Under the pieces are notes generated by a model that was given only the letters and a program-made list of their open reading frames with translations, did not search any database and was not told where the DNA came from. The position numbers and the translations under genes were made by a program. Of a stretch of 46,541 nucleotides of DNA, positions 30,702 through 46,541 are shown one piece after another (position 1 is the first letter of the stretch; each line of letters opens with the position of its first letter). Source of the DNA: Thermovirga sp. (GTDB taxonomy: Bacteria > Synergistota > Synergistia > Synergistales > Thermovirgaceae); NCBI RefSeq assembly GCF_017656375.1, contig NZ_JACDOB010000013.1, positions 1 through 46,541 of the forward strand. Reading direction: 5' to 3'.

Positions 30702-31513
30702 TGTCAATTTTTATTCACCCAACGGCATTGGTCTCAAATAAAGCCAAACTGGGAGATGGAGTATGGATAGGCCCTTATTGTATAGTTTGTGACGACGTAG
30801 AAATTGGCTCTGAAACTAGGCTAGAGGCCTTTGTGACCGTCCGCGATCACGTCAAGATAGGGAGAAAGTGCCTGTTATGCGAGCATGTGACTTTGGGGCA
30901 GCTGCCGCAAGACTTTGGCTACAAGGGCGAACTATCCTGGGTGAGGATAGGTGATGGGGTTACCCTTAGGGAGAACGTAACAGTTCATCGGGCCAGTGGA
31001 GAGGGTAACGAGACGGTAGTAAGTGGTGGCTGCTTCATTATGGAGGGAGTCCACATAGGCCACAACGTCTTCGTAGGGCCTGATTGTGTCATAGCGAGCA
31101 AGGCTGGCCTGGCTGGATATGTTAGTGTGGGTAAAAAAGTGGTACTTGGTGGGCTCTGCGGTATTCATCAGTTTGTGCGGATTGGAGACTACTGTATGAT
31201 AGGTGGCTTGTCCAAGGTGGTGAAGGATATTCCTCCTTTTCTGATTGTTGACGGGCACCCTGCAAAGATAAGAGGACTTAATGTGGTGGGTTTGAGGAGA
31301 AATGGCTTCAATCAGCAAGAGCGTAGCCTGATAAAGGAAGCATACAAAAAACTCTTGAGAAGCAGCCTAACGTTGAAGGATGCCTTAAGTTTGCTAGAAC
31401 AGGAAAAAGGCAACTCTGCTTTAATAAGGGAAATAATAGATTTCATCAAGGGTAGCAAGAGAGGAATCTCTCCTTGGCCGAATAAGAAAGAAAAGGGGCT
31501 CGAGAATGATTAG
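30701..31513 (+). CDS. lpxA: UDP-GlcNAc acyltransferase LpxA
   Basis: A 270-residue left-handed beta-helix trimeric enzyme placing the first 3-hydroxyacyl chain on UDP-GlcNAc. It shows 'HPTALVSNKAKLGDGVWIGP' at the N-terminus, 'VTVHRASGEGN', the catalytic-His region 'GVHIGHNVFVGPDCVIAS' and 'GLCGIHQFVRIGDYCMIGG'. A helical C-terminal domain (about 190-270) follows. ATG 30701 overlaps the fabZ stop by one base. Confidence 0.95.
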   Translation: MSIFIHPTALVSNKAKLGDGVWIGPYCIVCDDVEIGSETRLEAFVTVRDHVKIGRKCLLCEHVTLGQLPQDFGYKGELSWVRIGDGVTLRENVTVHRASGEGNETVVSGGCFIMEGVHIGHNVFVGPDCVIASKAGLAGYVSVGKKVVLGGLCGIHQFVRIGDYCMIGGLSKVVKDIPPFLIVDGHPAKIRGLNVVGLRRNGFNQQERSLIKEAYKKLLRSSLTLKDALSLLEQEKGNSALIREIIDFIKGSKRGISPWPNKKEKGLEND

Positions 31514-31988
31514 GCTCTTTGTTATGGACGTGGATGGCACCATGACCGATGGAGGCATCTTGATGGATGGCCGTGGCAATGAATGGAAGCGTTTCGATGT
31601 GAAGGACGGAATGGGTATAGCAAGACTCAAAAGAAGTGGCGTTGAGGTGTGTATCATTAGTGGGCGCCCCTCAAATGCCACTGCTGCAAGGGCAGAAGAA
31701 TTGGGCATAAAAAGGGTATATCAGGGTGTAGGTGATAAGTTGGCTCTTTTAAAGGATGTAGCAGATGAAATGGGCTTGAGTCCACAGGAGATAGCTTATA
31801 TAGGGGACGACGTGAACGACGTTGACTGTCTCAAGTGGGTGGGCCTTAGTTTTGCCCCTTCCGATGCGCTTGTGGAGGCCAAAGAGGCAGCAGATGTTGT
31901 TACTCCGTCACGGGGAGGATATGGCGCAGTAAGAGATGCAGCCGAGTTAATACTGCAGAAAAATAAAGATGAAGGGACCTTTGTGTAA
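31506..31988 (+). CDS. kdsC: 3-deoxy-manno-octulosonate-8-phosphate phosphatase KdsC
   Basis: A 160-residue HAD-family phosphatase without a cap domain, releasing Kdo from Kdo-8-phosphate. The nucleophile motif is 'FVMDVDGTMTDGG' (Asp 8 and Asp 10), and the metal-binding motif is 'IGDDVNDVDCL'. It overlaps lpxA by 8 bases. In this locus its Kdo product is also the substrate expected by the KdnB/KdnA pair at the far end. Confidence 0.93.
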   Translation: MIRLFVMDVDGTMTDGGILMDGRGNEWKRFDVKDGMGIARLKRSGVEVCIISGRPSNATAARAEELGIKRVYQGVGDKLALLKDVADEMGLSPQEIAYIGDDVNDVDCLKWVGLSFAPSDALVEAKEAADVVTPSRGGYGAVRDAAELILQKNKDEGTFV

Positions 31989-33912: not shown

Positions 33913-35027
33913 TGTCCATTTTCTTTAGCTGTGGCGAGGCTTCTGGGGACTATTACCTTTCAAGGCTTGCCGCGGGGCTAAGAGTTAGAGGGTTTGAGGG
34001 TAAATTGTGGGGCGTGGTAGGCCCCTTGAGTGAGGCTGCAGGTGTGGAAAAGGCCTGGTCCATGAGGGAACTTCAGCTTATGGGCATAGGAGAGGTCCTT
34101 TCATCTATCCCCAGGCTTCTTTCGCTTAAAAGGAGCATTGAATCCCAGATTATTGAGAAAAAACCCAAGGCTGTAGTTGTTGTAGATAGCCCTGATTTTC
34201 ATTTAAGGTTGTTGGAAGGTTTGCGCCTTAAAGGATACAGGGGAAAAGTATTTTACATGTGTCCTCCGACTGTTTGGGCATGGAGAGGCGGTAGGGTAAA
34301 GAAGCTAAAAAAGCTTTGTGATTTATGTTTCCCTCTCTTTGGCTTTGAACATGAATTTTTGGCATCAAAGGGAGTTTCAAGTCTTTGGATTGGGCATCCA
34401 TTTTTGGATGAAGCCATGTTTTCTAAAAGCTCCTTTCCAACTTTAAATTTGGAGGGAGAGGAAAGGGTTATCGGCCTGTTGCCTGGAAGTAGGCCCTCTG
34501 AGGTAAGGAGCATATTGCCGGTGTTATTGGAAGTTGGAGAAAGGCTTCAAGGTTTGGGGTTTAAACCGGTAGTTTCCATAGCTTCTAACCTCACAGAAGA
34601 GATAAAAAATTACATTAAGCTCAATTCAAGGGCCTTTGAAACTTATTCAGGGCCTGGAGCTAAGCTGATAGAGCGTTCGGATGCCGTGGTGGGAGCCAGC
34701 GGCACGGTGGCTGTTGAAGCCCTTCTGCGCCGGAGGTTCATGGTGGTGCTATATAAGGCTTCCTGGTCTTCTTGGTTGGCGTATAAGTTATTCGTGAAAA
34801 CCCCATGGATAAGCATACCCAATATCTTGGCAGGAGGGCCCCTGTTCCCGGAGCTTTTGCAAAACGATGCAAGAGCCAACAATGTTCTGGACAACCTTTT
34901 GCCTTACCTTCAGGATGAATCAAAAAGAGCTAAGATTCATAAGGTCATGGACGAAGCTTGCGAGAAACTTGGCAAGCCTGGTGCACTCAACTTGTGGGCA
35001 GAGGCTATTTTGAAGGGTGTGGAGTGA
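33912..35027 (+). CDS. lpxB: Lipid A disaccharide synthase LpxB
   Basis: A 371-residue GT-B glycosyltransferase joining lipid X and UDP-diacylglucosamine. Marks are 'SCGEASGDYYLSRLAAGLR' at the N-terminus, 'PPTVWAWRGGRVKKLK', 'WIGHPFLDEA' and 'GLLPGSRPSEVRSILPVLL'. ATG 33912 starts it after the lpxI stop; a longer frame from 33813 overlaps lpxI fully and is not needed. This is the copy most like ordinary LpxB of the three related domains in the window. Confidence 0.93.
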   Translation: MSIFFSCGEASGDYYLSRLAAGLRVRGFEGKLWGVVGPLSEAAGVEKAWSMRELQLMGIGEVLSSIPRLLSLKRSIESQIIEKKPKAVVVVDSPDFHLRLLEGLRLKGYRGKVFYMCPPTVWAWRGGRVKKLKKLCDLCFPLFGFEHEFLASKGVSSLWIGHPFLDEAMFSKSSFPTLNLEGEERVIGLLPGSRPSEVRSILPVLLEVGERLQGLGFKPVVSIASNLTEEIKNYIKLNSRAFETYSGPGAKLIERSDAVVGASGTVAVEALLRRRFMVVLYKASWSSWLAYKLFVKTPWISIPNILAGGPLFPELLQNDARANNVLDNLLPYLQDESKRAKIHKVMDEACEKLGKPGALNLWAEAILKGVE

Positions 35028-36109
35028 TGAAAAAAGTTCTTTTGTTGGCCAACGGGCCAGGAGAGCTTTGGTGTTGGGTAAGGCCTATGGTCAAGGCTTT
35101 GAAAACTAGAGGCTACGGAGTTACTATCGGCCTTTTGCCGTGCCAATTTTCCTCTGGCGAAGAAGTGAGGCTGGCAAGCAGCTTGGGCGCCGATAGGGTT
35201 TTTGGCCCTTATTTTTTCTTAAAAAGTGCTTTCAAAATGTTGAATGATGACTCTGACCTGGTTTTGCAACTTGGAGGCGACCTTTTGTATGGCCTTATGG
35301 CCTCAAGGGGGAAAAAGCCTTTTTTCTGCTATACTTATGCTCCTAAGCCTCTTATGGAAAAAACAGATTTAGTTATGACAGCTTGGGAGTCCCCCCTTAT
35401 GCCGAAGAGCGTTCCGGTAGGTGACCTTACTTCAGATGCTTTGGCAATGGATGAGGGATCCTCTCCGTGGAAGGAGGAAGGCTCTTTTCATTTGGTGTTT
35501 TTCCCCGGAAGCAGGCCTGCCATTAGAAGGGCATCTTTCAAGTTTTTGTCGGAGGTAAAAGACGCTTTGGGCAGGTTAGTAGATAATGTGGAGATAACGA
35601 CAGCCCTTTCTCCTTTTGCTTCAGAAGGTGAGGTAAATGAATGGGAAGAAGCGGGCCTTGCTCCTTCTATTGCGGGAACAAGGGTTATCCTTGAGAGGGC
35701 AGATTTGGCCTTGACACAGCCGGGGACTAACACCTTGGAGCTCATGCATTTAGGGGTTCCGACTATTGTGGCTGTTCCTTTTCGTTTTTTGGAGCACGTA
35801 CCTCTTGGTGGTTTAAAGGGGATTTTCCTGGAGACGCCTTTTTTGGGGAAAATGATAAAGGGTAAGTTCTTGAGAAGGGCTGCTGATTCCAGAAGAGATT
35901 TTCTTGCATGGCCAAACAGGATTGCCAAAGAGATGATAATGAAAGAAGTTGTTGGAGATATTGCCCCTGCTGAGTTAGCCCAGGTGTTGGCGGAACTTAT
36001 GCTGGACAAAAAAGAGAGGCTAAGGCAAAAGGAGCGCCTTATTAGCCTTGCTGAAAGGGAAAAAGTGGCAGAGAAGATATTATTCCTTATTGAAGAGAGG
36101 ATATGCTAA
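35027..36109 (+). CDS. LpxB-like glycosyltransferase, second copy
   Basis: A 360-residue GT-B-type protein related to LpxB but divergent. The N-terminal 'LLANGPGELWCWVRPMVKAL' replaces the usual GEASGD motif; 'VFFPGSRPAIRRASF' matches the LpxB phosphate loop, and 'LALTQPGTNTLELMHLGVPT' matches the LpxB donor-binding loop. There is no signal peptide. ATG 35027 overlaps the lpxB stop by one base, so the two are co-translated. The substrate is unknown; a further sugar transfer to lipid A or core is the simplest guess. Confidence 0.75.
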   Translation: MKKVLLLANGPGELWCWVRPMVKALKTRGYGVTIGLLPCQFSSGEEVRLASSLGADRVFGPYFFLKSAFKMLNDDSDLVLQLGGDLLYGLMASRGKKPFFCYTYAPKPLMEKTDLVMTAWESPLMPKSVPVGDLTSDALAMDEGSSPWKEEGSFHLVFFPGSRPAIRRASFKFLSEVKDALGRLVDNVEITTALSPFASEGEVNEWEEAGLAPSIAGTRVILERADLALTQPGTNTLELMHLGVPTIVAVPFRFLEHVPLGGLKGIFLETPFLGKMIKGKFLRRAADSRRDFLAWPNRIAKEMIMKEVVGDIAPAELAQVLAELMLDKKERLRQKERLISLAEREKVAEKILFLIEERIC

Positions 36110-37860
36110 GTATGTTTGGTAAAAAGAAGAGCTTGTATTTAAGGCTTTTAAAATATGCCAGACCTTATAAGGGCAGGATAGGTGCTGCTCTTGTGTGTAT
36201 GGTTATGGCTTCTGCATTTACGGTTATAGCCCCATGGATTTTGAAGAACATTGTGGACGATGTTCTTATAAGTAAAAATTTGTTCATGCTGAACCTGCTG
36301 GCTTTAGGCTTGGTTCTTTTGTATTTGCTTAAGAATGTGGCCTATTACGGCCAGCAATATTTGATGAACTGGGTTGGGCAGAGAGTAGTTATGGACTTGA
36401 GGCTTGAGCTTTACGACCATATGCAGAGGATGTCGCTGCGCTACATATATGGTGCAAGGGTGGGGGAGTTAGTCTCTCGTATAACCAATGATGTGGTAAA
36501 GCTTCAAGAGATGGTTACAACAGCTGTTATAGATTTGGTTGTTCAGAGCCTTAGCTTCGTAGGAATGCTTTGCTTTTTGATCTACTTAAACTGGAAGCTT
36601 ACGGCCATAACTTTTGTGATTTTGCCCATTGCCGCGTGGGTTTTAGACAAGGCATCTAAAAAGCTCAGGGCTGTTGGCCATGATATACAGAGCCAGCTAG
36701 CGGCCCTTTCTTCCATAGCTTATGAAGCCCTTTCAAGCATAAGGATAGTTAGGTCCTTTGCAACTGAAGACGAGGAGTATGAAAGGTTCAAAAATAGCAA
36801 TCAGGCCCACTTCAAGGCCCTGATGAGGGGGACCCAGGTGAATGCGGCCCTGTCGGGGATCATAGAGGTCATATTGATAGGGGCCTTATCCCTCATTCTT
36901 TGGTTTGGCGGCCGGATAGTCGTAGCAGGCGAGATGACTCCTGGAGAGCTCATAGCCTTCTTAGGGTATTTGGCCCTTTTAGTTCAGCCAATAAGGACCT
37001 TTTCTAGGGTGGTGGCCAAGATTCAGCAGGGCATGGCCTCAGCAGAGCGTATATTCGAAGTAATAGATACTAAAAATGAAATAACTCCCCCCAAAAAGCC
37101 CATTGTTCTGTCCAGTGTAGCTGGGAAGGTGGATTATAAGGGCGTGTGCTTTGCATATCAGAATGAGCAGTGGATATTGAAGGATATCGACATTTCCGTT
37201 TATCCGGGAGAGAAGGTCGCCATAGTGGGTCCTACCGGTGCGGGTAAGTCTACATTGGTAGATATGATCCCTCGTTTCTATGATCCCCAAAAAGGTGGGG
37301 TTTTCATAGATGGGGTTAACGTTCGTAATTTAGAGCTCAAGTCCTTGAGAAGACAGATAGGCATGGTGCCTCAGGATCCCTTGCTGCTTAAAGGAAGCAT
37401 ATCTTACAACATTGCCTACGGCTTTCCGGGAGCCACCCTCAAGAGCATTAAGAAGGCAGCAGAGATGGCGGGAATAAGGGAGTTCATAGAGAGCCTTCCT
37501 GATGGTTACGATACCGAAGTAGGAGAGAGGGGAGTTACCCTAAGCGGTGGCCAGCGGCAGAGGCTTGCGATAGCCAGGGCCATAATAAGGGATCCCAGGA
37601 TATTGATACTGGATGAAGCCACTTCCTCTTTGGATGCGGTGGTGGAGCAGGAGATTCAGGCGGCATTAAGAAAAGCTTCTGAGGGTAGGACGTCGTTTGT
37701 TATAGCCCATAGGCTTGCCACGGTCAAAGAGGCAGATCGCATTTTGGTTTTGGATAAAGGGACCATAGTGGAAGAAGGGACTCATGATAGCTTGATAAAA
37801 CGCGGAGGGCTGTATGCCAGGCTCTGCGAGTTGCAGTTTGGAGATGGCAATGGTGAGTAA
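36103..37860 (+). CDS. msbA: Lipid A flippase, ABC transporter MsbA
   Basis: A 585-residue half-transporter: six membrane helices in the first about 310 residues, then an ATPase domain with Walker A 'GPTGAGKST', signature 'LSGGQRQRLAIARAI' and Walker B 'ILILDEATSSLD'. By sequence it could be any type I exporter, but its place between lpxB-like and lpxK genes identifies it as MsbA, flipping Kdo-lipid A across the inner membrane. ATG 36103 overlaps the preceding stop by 7 bases; ATG 36112 is an alternative. Confidence 0.88.
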   Translation: MLSMFGKKKSLYLRLLKYARPYKGRIGAALVCMVMASAFTVIAPWILKNIVDDVLISKNLFMLNLLALGLVLLYLLKNVAYYGQQYLMNWVGQRVVMDLRLELYDHMQRMSLRYIYGARVGELVSRITNDVVKLQEMVTTAVIDLVVQSLSFVGMLCFLIYLNWKLTAITFVILPIAAWVLDKASKKLRAVGHDIQSQLAALSSIAYEALSSIRIVRSFATEDEEYERFKNSNQAHFKALMRGTQVNAALSGIIEVILIGALSLILWFGGRIVVAGEMTPGELIAFLGYLALLVQPIRTFSRVVAKIQQGMASAERIFEVIDTKNEITPPKKPIVLSSVAGKVDYKGVCFAYQNEQWILKDIDISVYPGEKVAIVGPTGAGKSTLVDMIPRFYDPQKGGVFIDGVNVRNLELKSLRRQIGMVPQDPLLLKGSISYNIAYGFPGATLKSIKKAAEMAGIREFIESLPDGYDTEVGERGVTLSGGQRQRLAIARAIIRDPRILILDEATSSLDAVVEQEIQAALRKASEGRTSFVIAHRLATVKEADRILVLDKGTIVEEGTHDSLIKRGGLYARLCELQFGDGNGE

Positions 37861-40114
37861 GGCCCTGGTGGATTACTTACGTTTTACAAGAGGAGAAGAG
37901 TCAAGCCCCTTTTGGTGGGGCATGGTGCCGTTAGGGTGGTTGGCGGATTTTTTGTCATCTCTGCGCAACAAGGCCTACGATCACGGTATGTTTAAAAGCC
38001 TTGAAGTGCCAGTTCCAGTGGTCAGCGTGGGGAATATTACGGTAGGTGGGACCAATAAAACTCCCGTAGTGGAGATGCTGGCCGGCCTTTTCGATTCTTG
38101 TGGTCTTAAAGTGGGTATTGTTTCAAGAGGCTATGGAAAAAAGAGTAAAGGGACTCGTGTGATGAGGGAAGGGACGTCTTTTTCACCTGATGAAGTTGGC
38201 GATGAGCCGTTTTTGCTCTCTCAGAAGTTGCCGAGAGCTGTCGTTTGCGTTTCCTCCGACCGGGTTGAAGGCATCCAGATTCTTGCTAAAGACGGTGTGG
38301 ATTTAGTGATTGCAGACGATGCATTCCAGCACAGGAAGATGGGAAGGGATGTAGATGTCCTTTTGGTGGATGCTACTTGTCCTTGGGGGAGCGGTAGGGT
38401 TTTCCCAGCGGGGCTTTTGAGGGAAAACAAAAGCGCTATAAGTAGGGCTCACATTGCGATTATAACGAAAGCTGACCAGGTGGAAAGAGCAACCATTGAA
38501 AAGATCAAGGATGAACTTGCCATATACCTGGATAAGGACTTTATATTTGAGGCCCACCTTGAGCTTGATAGCTGGGCTCTTTGGGATGGCAATTGGAAGG
38601 AGCTTGAGGTTCCCCCTAAGGGTAGAGCAGTGGTTTTTTCTGCCATAGGGAACCCGGCGAGCTTTGAAGCTTTCTTGAGGCGAGTAGGGGTAGAGATCCA
38701 GGGCCACCTGGTTTTCAGGGATCATCATAAGTTCAGCAAGAAAGACCTCGTGCAGATAGAAGAGGAGTACAGGAAACAAGAAGCCCAATTTGTAGTATGT
38801 ACAGAGAAGGATATTTTGAATTTGCCTAAGGGATACAAGTTTCCCTTTGAGGTCGTTGTTCCAAAAGTTAGGACTAAAATTGCCGAAGAGGAGAGATTCA
38901 TCAAAAAATTGATTGATGCATTGAGGCCCAGGATAGTTATAGCATCCAACGGCTATGGAGAGGATGCTATAGGTTCCCTGTTGGCGGCTAAGCTGAAGGA
39001 AAAGCTGCCTGATGCAGAGGTCTTGGCTTTTCCTCTTGTAGGCAGTGGAAAGGAATACGAACAGGCAGGCGTGAAGGTTTGTGCGCCACCATATGAAATG
39101 CCCAGCGAGGGTGTGATAAAGTATCACTTGAAGGATCTTTTAAGGGATTTAAAAAGAGGGCTTTTGCGTAATCTGTCGGAGCAGATGAAAGTTTGGAAAG
39201 CTTTAAGAGGAAAAATAAGGACGGTCCTCTGTGTAGGAGACGTTTATTTGCTTCTCAACGTCTTGTGGGGGCAAGGATGTATGCCGGTTCTTTTGGCTAC
39301 TGCAAAGACGGAAAAAAATAGAGGGCATTTCAGTTTTGAGTATTTTTTGCTGCGAAAGAGGGCCAGGTGCGTATGGACCAGGGATAGCCAAACCAGGGAT
39401 AAGATGGTGAAAAGAAAGGTAAATGCCGTCTTTTGTGGTAATCCAATTATGGATCTTGCCGGTGATAATGTTTGTGAAAAGAGCATGTTTTGGAAAGAAG
39501 ATTTGCCCGGGGTGCTTCTTTTGCCTGGTAGCCGTAAGAGGGCATATCAAGATGTCAAAATGCTCCTGGAAGCTGCGGAGTTGATAAATCAAAAGAAAAC
39601 GTGTCATTTTGTAATGGTCCTAGCGGCAACTATAGATGAAAAGCGTCTTTTGGAGTCGTTGGAAGGCTGGGAAAAGTTTGAAGACTCTTTACTGATAGGC
39701 CCTTCAGGTAGGACCAAGGTGGTTCTGACCAGGGAGAAGGTTGGAATGGTAGCTCGAGGGGCTAAGGTCGTTATAGGCCTTGGTGGGACGGCCAACCAGA
39801 TCTGTGCTGGGTTAGGCGTGCCAGTGGTCTCCATACTGGAGAAGGGTAAATTGGTGCAAAAAAGGCTTCTTGGAGAATCAGAAGTTCTGGTGGGGCCCAG
39901 CAGTGATGCTTTGGCCAGAGAGGCTTTAGCCATACTTAATAATTCTGGCAGGCACGCTAGGATGTCGAAAGCTGGTGTTTCTATGATGGGACCTTCTGGC
40001 GCGGTAGAAGATGTAGTGCGCTATGCTCTAAAGGAGCTAGGATGGAAGAAAAGGTGTCAGGTGTGGAAGCACCTGGATAAGGTTTTTGTAAAAGAGGGGG
40101 AACATGTGTTATGA
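37850..40114 (+). CDS. lpxK: LpxK tetraacyldisaccharide 4'-kinase fused to an LpxB-related glycosyltransferase
   Basis: A 754-residue fusion, about twice the normal LpxK length. Residues about 1-355 are LpxK: 'VVSVGNITVGGTNKTPVVEM' (P-loop), 'GIVSRGYGKKSKGT', 'VIADDAFQHRKMGRDVDVLL' and 'TEKDILNLPKG'. The P-loop reads GGTNKT where most LpxKs have GGTGKT. Residues about 361-745 form a second domain like 'lipid-A-disaccharide synthase-related' proteins: 'IVIASNGYGEDAIGSLLAA', 'VLLLPGSRKRAYQDV' and 'VIGLGGTANQICAGLGVPVV'. The frame is continuous, with no stop or shift at the junction. ATG 37850 follows TTTGGAG and overlaps msbA. Confidence 0.88.
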   Translation: MVSKALVDYLRFTRGEESSPFWWGMVPLGWLADFLSSLRNKAYDHGMFKSLEVPVPVVSVGNITVGGTNKTPVVEMLAGLFDSCGLKVGIVSRGYGKKSKGTRVMREGTSFSPDEVGDEPFLLSQKLPRAVVCVSSDRVEGIQILAKDGVDLVIADDAFQHRKMGRDVDVLLVDATCPWGSGRVFPAGLLRENKSAISRAHIAIITKADQVERATIEKIKDELAIYLDKDFIFEAHLELDSWALWDGNWKELEVPPKGRAVVFSAIGNPASFEAFLRRVGVEIQGHLVFRDHHKFSKKDLVQIEEEYRKQEAQFVVCTEKDILNLPKGYKFPFEVVVPKVRTKIAEEERFIKKLIDALRPRIVIASNGYGEDAIGSLLAAKLKEKLPDAEVLAFPLVGSGKEYEQAGVKVCAPPYEMPSEGVIKYHLKDLLRDLKRGLLRNLSEQMKVWKALRGKIRTVLCVGDVYLLLNVLWGQGCMPVLLATAKTEKNRGHFSFEYFLLRKRARCVWTRDSQTRDKMVKRKVNAVFCGNPIMDLAGDNVCEKSMFWKEDLPGVLLLPGSRKRAYQDVKMLLEAAELINQKKTCHFVMVLAATIDEKRLLESLEGWEKFEDSLLIGPSGRTKVVLTREKVGMVARGAKVVIGLGGTANQICAGLGVPVVSILEKGKLVQKRLLGESEVLVGPSSDALAREALAILNNSGRHARMSKAGVSMMGPSGAVEDVVRYALKELGWKKRCQVWKHLDKVFVKEGEHVL

Positions 40115-40854
40115 GGACGTTAGCTGTAATTCCTGCTCGCTATCAGAGTACTCGCCTTCCAGGCAAGCCTTTGATTGAGATAGCAGGGATTCCTTTGGTC
40201 ATAAGGGTGCTGAGGCAGGCTAGAAGATGCCCTCTTTTAGATAGGGTAATAGTGGCCACAGATGATGAGCGCATAGCTGAAGTGGTTAGAGAGGACGGGG
40301 GAGAAGCCATGATGACTCCCCCTGAGCTTCCAAGTGGTGGAGACAGGGTGGCGTGGGTCGTAAGCCGAGTGGAAGATTCAGATATGGTCCTTAATATTCA
40401 GGTAGATGACCCTCTTGTGGGGCCCAAGATGATAGGTTCCCTTATAGAGGCTTTGGCGCAAGATAAGGATTGCGACCTCGCATTGGCGGTGAAGGAGATA
40501 GAGAAGCCTTCCGAGGTGGAAGACCCCAATATAGTGAAGGTGGTTTTCGACCAGTATTTTAAGGCGTTGTATTTTAGCCGTTCTGTGATTCCTTATCCTC
40601 GAGTTAAGGGTGCCTCATATTACAAGCACATAGGGCCCTACGCCTACAGGAAAGGTTTTCTGCTGGAGTTTGCCAGCTGGAAGCAGACGCCATTGGAGCG
40701 TTCCGAGAGCCTGGAGATGTTGAGGGTACTTGAACTGGGCCGGAAGATAAAGTGCGTTCCTGTAATGGAGGATACCATAGAGATAGACACGCCTGAGGAC
40801 GTCAAGAGGCTGGAGGCATATTTAAAGAAGCATGGAGATGATCTCAAATGGTAA
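40111..40854 (+). CDS. kdsB: CMP-Kdo synthetase KdsB
   Basis: A 247-residue cytidylyltransferase activating Kdo with CTP. The N-terminal '[20 protein letters not shown]' is the nucleotide-binding signature; '[14 protein letters not shown]' carries the metal-binding Asp. Its start overlaps the lpxK stop as ATGA. In Shewanella the matching enzyme prefers 8-amino-Kdo, so substrate choice here is an open question given the kdn-like genes downstream. Confidence 0.95.
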
Positions 40855-41696
40855 GAAGCTTTTCTTTGGGAAATTACAAGGTGGGCGAGGAGAGATTGCT
40901 TGTGGTAGCTGGCCCGTGTGTTCTTGAAAGCCTGGATTTGGCTCTTGAGGTAGCCCAGGTAGCTGGCAAGGTATGCAGCAGCCTGGGGATGGATTATGTT
41001 TTCAAGTCCTCTTTTGATAAGGCTAACCGAACGTCCATCCACAGCTACAGGGGGCCTGGTATGGAAAAAGGTCTCAATTGGCTTGCGGAGATAAAGGCAA
41101 AGACAGGTTACCCCATATTGACGGATATTCACGAACCATGGCAGGCAGCAAGGGTTGCCGAGGTGGCTGACGTTTTGCAGATTCCGGCTTTCTTGTGCAG
41201 GCAGACAGATCTTCTCGTGGCCGCTGCCAGGACGGGCAAGGTAATAAACATAAAGAAGGGGCAGTTCCTTTCTCCATGGGATATGGCCCAGGCTGCAAGA
41301 AAATGCCTGGAAGCTGGCAACAACAGGATAATACTTTGTGAAAGAGGAACCACTTTTGGTTACAACCAGCTAGTGGTGGACATGAGATCCCTGCCGATAA
41401 TGAGATCCTTCGGATATCCTGTGATGTTCGACGGCACCCACAGCGTCCAGATGCCTGGAGGCCAAGGAGAAAGAAGTGGTGGGGATAGGCGATTTGTGTT
41501 GCCTTTAATTAGAGCCGCAGTCGCCATAGGTATAGATGCTCTTTTCCTTGAAACTCATCCTGAGCCGGATAAGGCCAAAAGTGATGGCCCCAATATGGTT
41601 CCTCTTTCAGATCTGGAGAAGCTCCTAAAGCAGGTCAAAAAGATCCATGAGGCAGCTAGGGCCATAGGTTATGTAAACCTTGCGGAGGAGGCATAG
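40848..41696 (+). CDS. kdsA: Kdo-8-phosphate synthase KdsA
   Basis: A 282-residue aldolase condensing arabinose-5-phosphate with phosphoenolpyruvate. It shows '[18 protein letters not shown]', '[20 protein letters not shown]' and '[13 protein letters not shown]'. Ligand residues for the metal-dependent form are suggested by Cys in 'AGPCVLES' but I cannot be firm on metal use. It overlaps kdsB by 7 bases. Confidence 0.95.
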
Positions 41697-41698
41697 CT

Positions 41699-42706
41699 AT
41701 GATCGCCCTTCCATGGGAAAGAGAAAGTAAGAACTTAGAGGATAGCTATCTTCAGAGTTTGGGTAAAAATATACTTTTTTCTGAAGCGGAAGAATTAAGG
41801 CGGGCAGCAGAGCGGTTAGGTCCTGAGCTCGTGGAGGCTGCAAGGGCAATCCACGATGCCAGCGGCAGGCTTGTCGTAGTGGGCATGGGAAAGTCAGGGC
41901 TTATAGGCCGCAAGATCGCTGCTACCTTTGCTTCTTTAGGCACCCCGGCTTTTTTCCTTCATGCGGCGGAAGGAGCCCATGGAGATTTGGGCATGGTGTG
42001 CAGGGAGGATGTAGGGCTTTTTTTGAGCAACAGCGGCGAGACCAGGGAGACCTTGGAGATACTGCCTTATTTCAAGCGCCTGGGGGCCGTCATAATAGCC
42101 CTCACGGGGAACCCTACGTCCCGATTGGCCCAAAATGCCGATATAGTGATTGATACTGGTGTGACGGCAGAGGCCGATCCGTTGGGGCTTGCCCCAACTT
42201 CCAGCACTACCCTCCAGCTTGCGGTAGGAGATGCCCTGGCAGGGATGGTCACGGAGCTCAGGGGTATAAGAAAAGAGGACTTTGCCATGTTTCACCCCGG
42301 AGGCTCTCTGGGGCGAAGGCTTCTTTTAAGGGTAGAGGATGTTATGGGAAGCAAGGAGAGGCTGCCTTTGGTGGGCCCTCAGACCTTTGTGAGGGAAGCT
42401 ATATTTGAGATGACCAGCAAAGGCTACGGGGCTGCCATCGTGGTCGATGATCGAGGGAGGCTTCTGGGGATATTTACCGATGGAGACTTGAGGCGCCTTT
42501 TGGAGGACCAGGGGCCTCAGGGGATGGGGCTCAGGATAGAGGACGTCATGACTAAAAGCCCTAAATTCATACAGCCAGAGAAGCTCGCGGTGGAGGCAGT
42601 TCATATTATGGAGGAATCGGAGATATCCTGCCTTGCCGTCGTCAAAGATGAGGTTGTAGTGGGAATCGTTCACATCCACGACCTGTTGAAAGCTGGGGTG
42701 GCGTAA
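41699..42706 (+). CDS. kdsD: Arabinose-5-phosphate isomerase KdsD
   Basis: A 335-residue SIS-domain isomerase making arabinose-5-phosphate from ribulose-5-phosphate for Kdo synthesis. The SIS domain (about 40-200) has 'VVVGMGKSGLIGRKIAATFA' and 'HAAEGAHGDLGMV'; two CBS domains ('VEDVMGSKERLP' and 'IEDVMTKSPKFI') follow. It starts two bases after the kdsA stop, completing kdsB-A-D. Confidence 0.94.
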   Translation: MIALPWERESKNLEDSYLQSLGKNILFSEAEELRRAAERLGPELVEAARAIHDASGRLVVVGMGKSGLIGRKIAATFASLGTPAFFLHAAEGAHGDLGMVCREDVGLFLSNSGETRETLEILPYFKRLGAVIIALTGNPTSRLAQNADIVIDTGVTAEADPLGLAPTSSTTLQLAVGDALAGMVTELRGIRKEDFAMFHPGGSLGRRLLLRVEDVMGSKERLPLVGPQTFVREAIFEMTSKGYGAAIVVDDRGRLLGIFTDGDLRRLLEDQGPQGMGLRIEDVMTKSPKFIQPEKLAVEAVHIMEESEISCLAVVKDEVVVGIVHIHDLLKAGVA

Positions 42707-42707
42707 C

Positions 42708-43952
42708 CTGCAGAAGAAACTTTACAGGGCAGTCTCAAGCTTAGCTTATCTGGCCGCTTTTCCCTACCTTGCCCTTCGTTATAGGGAGGGGTTGGCAGAG
42801 CGGCTGGGGTACTACAAAGACTTGGAGAAAGGCTCTTTCTGGATCCACGCCGTGTCGGTGGGGGAGGTCCAGGCTGCGTTTCCCATGGTGAAAGCTATGG
42901 GAAACGCAGCAAGCTGTAGCGCTTTGCTTAGCACCATCACCCCTACGGGTAGGTGTATGGCCCGCAAGCTTTTGGGTGACAGTGTAAGGCTGATTTACTA
43001 TCCTTGGGACGCCCCATGGGTGGTGAAGAGGGCTTTGGACAGGATAAGCCCAAGGGCATATATAGCGGTTGAGACGGAAGTATGGCCTAACCTGCTTTAT
43101 GGGCTTAAGAAAAGAAACATTCCGGCTTTTTTGGCCAATGCCAGGTTTTCAGAGCGCTCATTCAGGAAGGCGCTGAAGCATAGAAAGCTTTGGTGTTCTT
43201 TGCTTGAGAATTTCAGGAAAATAATGGCCAGAACTGAAGCTGATTCAAAGAGGTTTATAGAGATAGGCGTAAGGCCTGATAAAGTTGTAGTGACTGGAGA
43301 CTGCAAAATAGATGCTCTCCTTGCAAGGCGCCAAGCTGTAGATGTAGAGGGCTTAAAGAAGAAGCTCAATCTGGAAGGGAGCAAAGTTCTCCTTGCCGGC
43401 AGCACCCATGAAGGAGAGGAAGATGTAGTGCTAGATGCCTTCAGTAGGCTTACATATAAGGGGCATAAAGTGCGTTTGATATTGGTGCCAAGGCACCCCC
43501 AGAGGGCTAAGAAATTGGCATCTGAAGCAGCTTCAAAGACGGGAAAGAGAGTTGCTCTTTTATCCCAGATGCAGCGTGATTGGGAGATAATTATAGTTGA
43601 TCAGGTCGGCGTTTTGTTTGAGCTTTACGGCGTGGTGGACGCTGCTTTCATTGGAGGGAGCCTTGTGCCTAAGGGAGGCCAGAACATCCTGGAACCTGCT
43701 TCGTGGGGGGTTCCCATACAGCACGGCCCCTTTATGGATGATTTTTATGAGGCCTCAAGGGAGCTTATAAGGCTTTCTTCTGCCAGGGTGGTGAGGACGG
43801 CAGAAGAACTGGCTTCTGAGTGGGAAGAGATTTTGAATGAGAAAAGCTTTGGGGAAGTAATGCGGCCCCAGGCAAGAGCTTATGTGGAAAACCTTGGTGG
43901 TGCCGCTTTAAGAAATTGGGAGATAATAAACGAAAGCATGATACAGGAATGA
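42708..43952 (+). CDS. waaA: Kdo transferase WaaA (KdtA), probable CTG start
   Basis: A GT-B enzyme that attaches Kdo (or Kdo8N) to lipid A. 'HAVSVGEVQAAFPMVKA', 'TGDCKIDALL' and 'PKGGQNILEPASWGVP' are family marks. From TTG 42792 only 386 residues remain, without the usual N-terminal membrane anchor. In the same frame, bases 42708-42791 encode a basic-hydrophobic stretch ('KKLYRAVSSLAYLAAFPYLA') that fits that anchor. No ATG, GTG or TTG exists between the upstream in-frame stop (42687-42689) and 42792; CTG 42708 has GGGGTGG about 6 bases upstream, giving 414 residues, the usual family length. The start codon is inference. Confidence 0.88.
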   Translation: MQKKLYRAVSSLAYLAAFPYLALRYREGLAERLGYYKDLEKGSFWIHAVSVGEVQAAFPMVKAMGNAASCSALLSTITPTGRCMARKLLGDSVRLIYYPWDAPWVVKRALDRISPRAYIAVETEVWPNLLYGLKKRNIPAFLANARFSERSFRKALKHRKLWCSLLENFRKIMARTEADSKRFIEIGVRPDKVVVTGDCKIDALLARRQAVDVEGLKKKLNLEGSKVLLAGSTHEGEEDVVLDAFSRLTYKGHKVRLILVPRHPQRAKKLASEAASKTGKRVALLSQMQRDWEIIIVDQVGVLFELYGVVDAAFIGGSLVPKGGQNILEPASWGVPIQHGPFMDDFYEASRELIRLSSARVVRTAEELASEWEEILNEKSFGEVMRPQARAYVENLGGAALRNWEIINESMIQE

Positions 43953-43964
43953 GGGGTGGAAGAA

Positions 43965-45128
43965 TTGCAATTTCAAATGCATATGGCAGGTAGGGTGTTT
44001 TTTGGTCAGGGTGCTTCCGCCAAGGTTAAAGACCTTGCGGATAGCCTTGGCGCTAAAAGAGTGGTCGTTGTGACCGACAAAACCATGCAGGAGCTTGGTG
44101 TAGCGGAAAAGATTGCGTCCTTTGTGCGAGGTACAGGAAGAGAAGTTTTTATTTTCGATGAGGTGGAGCCAGAGCCCTCCGTGGAGACAACGGACAAGGC
44201 TGCGGAGCTTGCGAGAGAGAAAAGCTGTGACTTGGTGGTTGGCCTAGGTGGTGGAAGCTCCATGGACGTTGCCAAGGCTGTCAGTGTCTTGGTGACTAAC
44301 GAAGGGTCGGCGGCTAAATATCAAGGGCTAGGTTTGGTGAAAAAGCCAGGCGTGCCCAAGATTATGATACCTACCACAGCAGGAACTGGTTCGGAGGTCA
44401 CCTTTACTGCCGTCTTGATCAGAAGGAGCGACGGCGTCAAGGGAGGCATAAACGACGACAAGCTTTACCCAGATTACAGCTTGCTTGATCCGGAGCTTAC
44501 GGTGAGCATGCCTCCTTATGTCACGGCATCTACAGGAATGGACGCGTTGGCCCACGCCCTCGAGGCGTATACCAGCCGCCAGGCATCTCCTTTTAGCGAC
44601 ATGTTTGCTGAAGAGGCCATGGTGAGGGTTGGAAGGTGGCTCAGGGTGGCCACGTGGAACGGGAGTGACATGGAGGCCAGGTCGGAGATGATGCTTGCTT
44701 CGTTCTACGGCGGTGTTGCCTTGGCCAACGCTGGGGTTGGAGCCTGCCATGCCTTGGCTTATCCTTTAGGCGGGATGTTTGGAGTATCCCATGGCGTAGC
44801 TAATGCCCTTCTTTTGCCTTATGTTGCCCGTTTCAACAGTTTGGCTGCTCCTGCAAAGTATGCCAAGGCGGCGAAGCTCCTGAGCGGGATAAGTTATGGG
44901 AATTTGGGCATACATGAAGTAGCTTTAGCCTGCAGCGAGATTTTGGATGAGATGGTAATGGACCTGGAACTTCCCAATACCTTGAGCAAACTTGAGGTGG
45001 GCATAAAGGAAGAGCATTTTGAGGAAATGGCCATAAAGGCCATGGGGGTATCAAGGCCGATGGAGAACAACCCCAGAAAGATGGACCTTGCAGATTGCGT
45101 GAAAATATACAGGGAGGCGATGGAGTAA
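43965..45128 (+). CDS. kdnB: Iron-type alcohol dehydrogenase, probable KdnB
   Basis: A 387-residue group III (iron-type) dehydrogenase. Cofactor loop 'VVGLGGGSSMDVAKAVSVL', 'PTTAGTGSEVTFTAV', and metal-binding 'DALAHALEAYTS' and 'ACHALAYPLGGMFGVSHGVA' are all present. By sequence alone it could be a fermentative alcohol dehydrogenase. Its place between waaA and a DegT aminotransferase, in a kds operon, matches KdnB, which oxidises C8 of Kdo before amination. TTG 43965 is chosen since GAGGGGTGG (43951-43959) is 6 bases ahead; GTG 43956 overlaps that site. The next gene overlaps its stop. Confidence 0.8.
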   Translation: MQFQMHMAGRVFFGQGASAKVKDLADSLGAKRVVVVTDKTMQELGVAEKIASFVRGTGREVFIFDEVEPEPSVETTDKAAELAREKSCDLVVGLGGGSSMDVAKAVSVLVTNEGSAAKYQGLGLVKKPGVPKIMIPTTAGTGSEVTFTAVLIRRSDGVKGGINDDKLYPDYSLLDPELTVSMPPYVTASTGMDALAHALEAYTSRQASPFSDMFAEEAMVRVGRWLRVATWNGSDMEARSEMMLASFYGGVALANAGVGACHALAYPLGGMFGVSHGVANALLLPYVARFNSLAAPAKYAKAAKLLSGISYGNLGIHEVALACSEILDEMVMDLELPNTLSKLEVGIKEEHFEEMAIKAMGVSRPMENNPRKMDLADCVKIYREAME

Positions 45129-46339
45129 TGCCAGGATTTGAGCTTTTTGACCAGAAGGAGATTGATGCCGTAGTAGATGTCCTGAAGAGGAAGATAGTGC
45201 ACAGATATTCTTTTCAGGATGTGAGAGATGGCATCTACAAGGTGGCGGAGTTTGAGGATGCCGTAGCGGAGAAGATGGGCTCTAAGAAGTGCCTTGCGGT
45301 CTCAAGCGGCTCTGCAGCCCTTTACGTGGCTATGAGGGCCTGCGGCATTGGGCCAGGAGATGAGATTATCACGTCGCCTTTTACGTTCATAGCGAGCATA
45401 GAGGCTATCTTGGAGTGTGGAGCTGTTCCTGTCCTGGCAGAGATAGATGAAAGCCTGAACCTTGACCCCGAATCTGTTGAGGATCTTATAACTGAAAAAA
45501 CAAAGGCCATTATGCCTGTTCACATGTTCGGAGGAGCTGCCGACATGGACAGGTTTGCCGAGCTTTGTGAGGAATACGGGCTTTACCTCTTTGAGGATTC
45601 CTGCCAGGCCATGGGCGCAACCTATAAAGGGCGCTATGTGGGGACCTTTGGGAAATGGGGAACCTACAGCCTTGACCCCTATAAGCTCCTTACGGTGGGC
45701 GAAGGCGGCCTAATAGTGACTGACGATGAGGAGCTTTACGACCGCATGAGGTATTACCACGACCACGGCCACATGCACGACATGAGCATACCAAGGGGCG
45801 CCGAGGGCAAGGCGTGCTTGGGCTTCAACTTCCGCATGGACGAGATAAGAGGCGCCCTGGGGCTAGCGCAGCTGGAGAAGCTGGACAAGGCAATAGGGAT
45901 GCTCAGGGAAAATAAGAAGAAGATCCTGGAAAATGTCACTATCCCGGAAGGCGTGAAACTTAGGGATCTGCCAGATAGAAGTGGAGAGCTTGCAACTCAG
46001 CTTGTCTTCATCTTCCCTGACGAAGATACGGCGAAGGCTTTTCAGAAGGCTGCAGGCGAAGCAGGAGCGCCTTGTGGAATATTGGCAGGCAATACGTGGC
46101 ATTACGCCAGGCACTGGCAGACGTTGAGGGAGGGCTCTTACTACAGCAGGATCAGGTGCCCTTACGACTGTCCTTATGCCGATTATGTTCCGGCATACAG
46201 GCCTGTGGAGTGGCCTAAGACCCACGACATATTGAGCAGGACTGCTGTTTATGGGCTGGACATAGTGATGGAGGATGCCAGGCTGGAGAAGATGGCCAAG
46301 GGGATAAACGAGGGCTTCAAGGCTGCCTTTGGTAGATAA
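45128..46339 (+). CDS. kdnA: DegT/DnrJ/EryC1 aminotransferase, probable KdnA
   Basis: A 403-residue PLP sugar aminotransferase. Marks are 'AVSSGSAALYVAMRACGIGP' (PLP phosphate site), 'LFEDSCQAMGATYKGRYVG' (Asp for the ring nitrogen) and the Schiff-base lysine in 'SLDPYKLLTVGEGG' (K186). Coupled by TAATG overlap to the iron-type dehydrogenase, it fits KdnA, which aminates the 8-aldehyde of Kdo to give Kdo8N. A cysteine-rich insert 'SRIRCPYDCPYADYV' (about 338-352) is unusual. An in-frame start at 45095 is possible but overlaps the dehydrogenase gene. Another amino-sugar substrate cannot be ruled out. Confidence 0.8.
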   Translation: MPGFELFDQKEIDAVVDVLKRKIVHRYSFQDVRDGIYKVAEFEDAVAEKMGSKKCLAVSSGSAALYVAMRACGIGPGDEIITSPFTFIASIEAILECGAVPVLAEIDESLNLDPESVEDLITEKTKAIMPVHMFGGAADMDRFAELCEEYGLYLFEDSCQAMGATYKGRYVGTFGKWGTYSLDPYKLLTVGEGGLIVTDDEELYDRMRYYHDHGHMHDMSIPRGAEGKACLGFNFRMDEIRGALGLAQLEKLDKAIGMLRENKKKILENVTIPEGVKLRDLPDRSGELATQLVFIFPDEDTAKAFQKAAGEAGAPCGILAGNTWHYARHWQTLREGSYYSRIRCPYDCPYADYVPAYRPVEWPKTHDILSRTAVYGLDIVMEDARLEKMAKGINEGFKAAFGR

Positions 46340-46541
46340 TGAGTCAAAATGGGCCTAAGCTGGTTGTAGTACTGAAGGATGGAATAAGGGGGCACGAGAA
46401 CCAATCCTTGGGGATTGCCCACTGGTTGAGGAATATGGGGGCCGAGGTACTTGAATTTGATGTTCCCAAGTTGAGGGGCATTGCTCGGTTTCTGAGGTTG
46501 AAAGTGGGGTCTCGTGTCCTCGCCTTTGGCTCTGGCAAGCG
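46339..46541 (+). CDS. ELM1-family putative glycosyltransferase, 5' part
   Basis: A frame open from ATG 46339 to the window edge (67 codons). The encoded start 'VVVLKDGIRGHENQSLGIAH' matches the N-terminal 'DGkpGHeNQ' pattern of the ELM1 (mitochondrial fission ELM1, DUF1022) family, in bacteria thought to be GT-B-type glycosyltransferases of LPS. TAATG overlap with the aminotransferase shows it belongs to the same operon. It is truncated only by the window. Confidence 0.75.
   Translation, partial: MSQNGPKLVVVLKDGIRGHENQSLGIAHWLRNMGAEVLEFDVPKLRGIARFLRLKVGSRVLAFGSGK

Follow-up and report, generated by a model that had tools for sequence, protein, structure and literature searches.

A predicted three-part system for 8-amino-Kdo along one Kdo operon of Thermovirga sp.

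No LPS sugar is more conserved than Kdo, and a locus of Thermovirga sp. (phylum Synergistota) raises the question of whether the Kdo made there is turned into an amino derivative, 8-amino-Kdo (Kdo8N). The window, that is, the whole 46,541-nucleotide stretch of DNA that was analyzed, carries genes for an iron-type alcohol dehydrogenase (Fe-ADH) and a DegT-family aminotransferase directly after kdsB-kdsA-kdsD-waaA and on the same strand. A preliminary description of this DNA, which had the coordinates and the gene order of the pair right, likened it to KdnB and KdnA of Shewanella and took it to point to Kdo8N. That reading is supported by the analysis presented here; Kdo8N in the LPS is predicted from sequence. 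The locus very probably encodes a three-part system laid out along one Kdo operon, in which the dehydrogenase (ADHk, a name given here to its Fe-ADH lineage), KdnA and a dedicated KdsB (class KdsB-I) would convert Kdo and activate it as Kdo8N. The third component, kdsB at 40111-40854, had been missed in the preliminary description. The genes concerned are:

31506-31988, plus strand: kdsC, Kdo-8-phosphate phosphatase, among lipid A genes (TIGR01670, 159.9 bits, above cut-off)
40111-40854, plus strand: kdsB of class KdsB-I, predicted CMP-Kdo8N synthetase (clade support 100/99 apart from KdsB-II; Glu224)
40848-41696, plus strand: kdsA, Kdo-8-phosphate synthase (NF003543, 424.6 bits, above cut-off)
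41699-42706, plus strand: kdsD, arabinose-5-phosphate isomerase (TIGR00393, 308 bits, above cut-off)
42792-43952, plus strand: waaA, transferase of Kdo, here predicted to transfer Kdo8N (PF04413, NF004388)
43956-45128, plus strand: Fe-ADH, an iron/zinc-type, group III alcohol dehydrogenase (PF00465 and PF25137; start at GTG, or at TTG 43965)
45128-46339, plus strand: kdnA, by family the PLP-dependent 8-amino-3,8-dideoxy-octulosonate transaminase (DegT family; match to PDB 5k8b, KdnA clade)

The profile scores of KdsD, KdsA and KdsC bear out the earlier statement that the steps leading up to Kdo are encoded in the window. The order kdsB-kdsA-kdsD-waaA-ADH-kdnA, or its remnant on short contigs, is found again in other genomes of the group, so that the arrangement is not one of chance; the dehydrogenase-kdnA pair is not peculiar to the window genome, and about half of the genomes in the group carry KdnA. 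Within GAGTAATGCC, the TAA stop codon of the Fe-ADH gene and the ATG start codon of kdnA have one base in common (TAATG); this overlap makes the previously proposed translational coupling of the two genes plausible. At the other end of the dehydrogenase gene, the sequence GAGGGG at approximately 43951-43956 fits a start at TTG 43965 better than one at GTG 43956.

Searched against all PDB sequences, the aminotransferase finds its best match in KdnA of Shewanella oneidensis (5k8b; 320 bits, spanning residues 1-397, with a self score of 904 bits) and its second in perosamine synthetase (179.5 bits over 219 residues); it reaches the cut-off of no NCBIfam equivalog for other DegT proteins. A maximum-likelihood tree splits 46 KdnAs from 14 other DegT proteins at 100/99 and places the window protein well inside the KdnA clade. 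The PLP lysine, K186, is kept in 60 of 60 aligned rows, and 20 positions that are kept in KdnAs and rare in other DegT proteins (for example, D183, D212, H215, H217, N322, W324 and W330) are present in the window protein. The KdnA stretch around RYxF...R (residues 26-33) lacks a counterpart in E. coli ArnB and in the other DegT protein aligned alongside. By these signs the product of 45128-46339 is KdnA, as had been proposed.

The distribution of KdnA was followed in 188 genomes of the window's phylum, representing 63 genera. At a threshold of E <= 1e-90, KdnA is present in 87 of these genomes and in 43 of the genera, with six further genomes near the threshold. The KdsBs of the phylum fall into two clades, class I (support 100/99), which includes the window protein, and class II (99/86), and it is the class of KdsB that goes with the presence of KdnA: 89 of the 97 genomes with a class I KdsB have KdnA (8 do not), as does 1 of the 72 with class II KdsB only (71 do not). 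Fisher's test, with relatedness not removed, gives p 3e-37 for this association; on a tree of KdsA and KdsD, KdsB class and KdnA switch together in all four of the supported independent contrasts, a number with which a sign test cannot reach 0.05. Contigs break beside the locus in five of the eight class I genomes lacking KdnA; in two genomes with a Glu224-bearing KdsB-I (G160 and G060), KdnA was not found. The genes for KdsB-I and for the ADH-KdnA pair come and go together despite the intervening kdsA-kdsD-waaA. For example, one member of the window's own family (G008) has neither kdsB-I nor ADHk-kdnA, and has a class II kdsB after waaA. Judged by this co-inheritance, the kdsB gene at 40111-40854 is part of the predicted Kdo8N system.

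A single residue marks the KdsBs that accompany KdnA. The window KdsB belongs to the same enzyme family as the CMP-Kdo synthetases of E. coli (PDB 3k8d) and Aquifex aeolicus (2y6p) and shares their Mg-A aspartates, but it has Glu224 in place of Gly and QVDDP in place of QGDEP. Glu224 (codon GAG, 40780-40782) lies two residues before the Mg-A ligand Asp226, the equivalent of Asp219 in the A. aeolicus enzyme (PMC3149649, a paper that says nothing on C8). It is present in 41 of 41 class I KdsBs; class II KdsBs have Gly, Asn or Ser at this position, or Cys in one genome (G127), and the PDB KdsB chains that were compared (1vh1, 3k8d, 8ees, 3jtj, 3oam, 4xwi, 3duv, 1vh3 and 1gq9) have Gly. All 53 Shewanella-type KdsBs have Glu at the equivalent position, as do the KdsBs of Aliikangiella, of one Desulfobacterales genome and of one Deltaproteobacterium, while a Thiotrichales genome has Glu in its kdnA-linked KdsB and Gly in a second KdsB. 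In the Bacteroidetes order Chitinophagales, Glu was found in 2 of the 30 KdsBs that were read, those of G189 (the seed) and G249; a search of 61 Chitinophagales genomes found KdnA in exactly two, and they are the same two. Our guess is that Glu224 contacts the 8-ammonium group at C8 of Kdo8N. This gives a specific hypothesis, confined to one residue, of how a KdsB could distinguish Kdo8N from Kdo, and the combination of KdnA with KdsB Glu224 provides a sequence rule for Kdo8N that is open to strain-by-strain chemistry. The QVDDP motif occupies residues 97-101 (40399-40413); position 100 is Asp throughout the class I set that was aligned first and Asn in a few other KdsBs.

The substrates and products of the pathway that we propose are read from the observed family membership, operon structure, co-inheritance and conserved catalytic residues, and its steps are placed in the order that Gattis and co-workers reportedly gave for Shewanella. 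KdsD, KdsA and KdsC would supply Kdo. ADHk (43956-45128), an NAD-linked and metal-dependent enzyme, would oxidize the primary alcohol at C8 of Kdo to the 8-aldehyde, 8-oxo-Kdo, which KdnA (45128-46339) would convert with an amino donor, by analogy with Shewanella probably glutamate, to Kdo8N. KdsB-I (40111-40854), with its Glu224, would then combine Kdo8N with CTP to yield CMP-Kdo8N, from which WaaA would attach Kdo8N to the lipid A precursor. The single KdsB found in the window genome is of class I, so Kdo8N should largely replace Kdo in this organism. The Shewanella KdsB is also said to prefer Kdo8N, and KdnB to hold NAD tightly; neither statement is used as support here.

The pair might conceivably make a different amino sugar, with ADHk oxidizing a lipid A or core sugar alcohol, or a relative of Kdo, and the KdnA homologue aminating the product. 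Sequence does not reveal substrate specificity, the window KdnA is well diverged from the characterized enzyme (320 bits, against 904 with itself), and ADHk scores nearer to simple alcohol dehydrogenases; we nevertheless consider this alternative improbable, since the third, co-inherited partner is a KdsB, a member of a family that handles Kdo-type sugars, and has the same Glu as the Shewanella KdsB, and since the KdnA-specific residues are common to the window and Shewanella KdnAs. 

By raw score, the best matches of the window Fe-ADH are NAD-dependent methanol dehydrogenases (278 bits), KdnB (5k8c) reaching only 136 bits. The reading that this invites, a dehydrogenase simply unrelated to KdnB, was dropped on the evidence of a tree and of a ranking centered on KdnB. 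With Shewanella KdnB as the query, kdnA-linked ADHks score 108-145 bits, and other Fe-ADHs outside the KdnB groups score at most 89. In the tree, ADHk, KdnB and a KdnB-like lineage are joined at 98/96 against 28 other Fe-ADHs, a grouping that the long branch to KdnB could render partly artefactual; KdnB and the KdnB-like lineage together make up a clade with 100/100 support, placed within or next to ADHk, and the window Fe-ADH lies outside this clade. Compared with KdnB proper (FeADH3, cd08184), the window enzyme is a member of the same group III family, has the same four metal ligands and shares D80, Q123, L127, T151, L154, N166, A257, C264 and G276, which are rare in other Fe-ADHs; it differs in length (390 against ~356 residues) and in its distance from KdnB (136-145 bits, against 538-818 within KdnB). 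All four metal ligands (D196, H200, H265 and H279) are intact, and the nucleotide motif GGGSSMD is present. A true KdnB was not found elsewhere in the window genome, where no other Fe-ADH exceeds 60 bits against Shewanella KdnB, compared with 140 for the window enzyme. By its place in the tree the window dehydrogenase is therefore assigned to a sister lineage of KdnB, ADHk, and is not a KdnB ortholog: the earlier description of it as KdnB-like stands, in that it groups with KdnB rather than with fermentative alcohol dehydrogenases, but an equation with KdnB itself does not. Phylogenies of both proteins, which the preliminary description had put forward as a check, place neither in a family of other function.

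The company that ADHk keeps bears on its role. In the window's family and most nearby families the order is kdsB-kdsA-kdsD-waaA-ADHk-kdnA; ADHk and kdnA likewise follow waaA in two deep families (f11 and f12), and the ADHk gene is kept with kdnA in 11 of 12 family codes. Four genomes (G021, G029, G063 and G068) have kdsB, ADHk and kdnA grouped as a cassette; the corresponding cassette of G036, G037 and their relatives consists of kdsB, a gene for the KdnB-like enzyme, and kdnA. The KdnAs of the latter cassettes form a sub-clade nested among the ADHk-paired KdnAs: one KdnA lineage is thus paired with either dehydrogenase, which argues that ADHk and the KdnB-like enzyme do the same job. G021, G029, G036 and G037 have an ordinary array with KdsB-II plus the separate kdsB-I/dehydrogenase/kdnA cassette. 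At a further set of loci (L188, L190, L191, L194, L205, L207 and L219-L221), kdsB adjoins kdnA with no Fe-ADH nearby, and in G127 (80% complete), in which the only KdsB detected is of class II, KdnA is present (L195, 7075-8277) with neither a dehydrogenase nor a kdsB recognized in the 16 kb around it.

One genome of the phylum, G024 (97% complete), amounts to a natural knockout. It has a class I kdsB, and ADHk is in its usual place after waaA (L156, 6440-7693), but there is no kdnA in the genome, and an hldE-like gene, so named from its start, follows ADHk instead. Three of the four metal ligands of this ADHk are replaced, D196, H200 and H265 by Ser, Asn and Ser, respectively. It is 48.5% identical to the ADHk of G015, a genome of the same family, compared with 74% between G015 and G039; the KdsD, WaaA and LpxK of G024 show the similarity that is expected. 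At positions 224 and 203, its KdsB resembles class II, with Ser and Gln, respectively. On its residues, the Fe-ADH of G024 is a decayed or repurposed enzyme, and its decay where KdnA is missing ties ADHk to the function of KdnA.

These facts weigh against reading the Fe-ADH as an unrelated enzyme, a fermentative or regulatory alcohol dehydrogenase that happens to lie in the operon, with KdnA drawing on some other dehydrogenase. Among characterized enzymes, methanol and 1,3-propanediol dehydrogenases match it best, and its best NCBIfam family is ErcA. However, it reaches no NCBIfam equivalog cut-off (ErcA, 317 against 550 bits; lactaldehyde reductase, 289 against 523), and the NAD-dependent methanol and 1,3-propanediol dehydrogenases (PDB 8zrl, 8zwd and 3bfj), for all their full-length similarity and highest raw score, form a clade separate from it in the tree. 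We know of no linkage of those enzymes to kdnA. ADHk accompanies kdnA in nearly all family codes, and its gene overlaps the kdnA start codon in the window; among other lineages a KdnB-like enzyme takes its place, and in G024, which has no kdnA, its metal site is gone. The other Fe-ADHs of the window genome do not approach its score against KdnB. An unrelated dehydrogenase is, on this balance, very unlikely. A GnnA/GnnB-like pair making GlcN3N for amide-linked lipid A, which would share the overall plan of a dehydrogenase paired with a DegT protein among lipid A genes, was set aside as exceedingly unlikely: GnnA is a GFO/IDH-type oxidoreductase, the partner here is an Fe-ADH, and the DegT protein lies within the KdnA clade.

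The system proposed here, ADHk with KdnA and KdsB-I, resembles the KdnA-KdnB-KdsB set of Shewanella (PDB 5k8b, 5k8c) in having a KdnA of the same clade, an Fe-ADH partner of the same larger clade, a KdsB that is co-inherited and has Glu ahead of its Mg-A Asp, and genes near kdsB. It differs in that the dehydrogenase is ADHk rather than KdnB, the genes are part of a kdsB-kdsA-kdsD-waaA operon, and the KdsB belongs to a clade apart, having QVDDP where Shewanella-type KdsBs have QGDQP. The chemistry is predicted to be as in Shewanella; the dehydrogenase is another one, the KdsB lineage is separate and the host group is new. Kdo8N has been called a hallmark of Shewanella (PMC6357163); the searchable literature yielded no report of it outside that genus, nothing relevant on the LPS chemistry of Synergistetes and no enzyme data on these organisms. 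PMC5125639 classifies KdnB as FeADH3 (cd08184), a group III alcohol dehydrogenase, and cites Gattis et al. 2013 for the Shewanella Kdo8N pathway, while a gene table for Leptospira uses the name kdnB, with no pathway claim in that passage (PMC8510873). We lean towards a broader proposal: that Kdo8N is an old and repeatedly exchanged modification of LPS that would occur in at least three further groups (approximately half of the genomes of the window's phylum, some Desulfobacterales/Deltaproteobacteria and some Chitinophagales), made with interchangeable C8 dehydrogenases and one KdnA, and readable from a single KdsB Glu that selects the 8-amino sugar. Kdo8N brings a positive charge to the base of the core. 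Evidence for its synthesis by many bacteria of a second phylum would revise current ideas on the places and the frequency of inner-core alterations.

Several features of the surrounding genes are recorded here in their own right. The waaA frame is open for ~33 codons 5' of its first ATG, GTG or TTG (42693-42792), the upstream part being a plausible membrane anchor; translation may start at CTG or another unusual codon near 42693. A further gene directly 3' of kdnA (46340-46541, MSQNGPKLVVVLKDGIRGHENQ...) runs off the contig, and this fragment matches no Pfam family. At 34958-36109, directly after lpxB, a second protein is encoded that weakly resembles LpxB (PF02684, 27.7 bits). Finally, lpxK (37856-40114) is a single open reading frame fused to a C-terminal domain related to lipid-A-disaccharide synthase (TIGR03492, 212.5 bits; cut-off 219.2), and the same fusion is found again in the loci of relatives.
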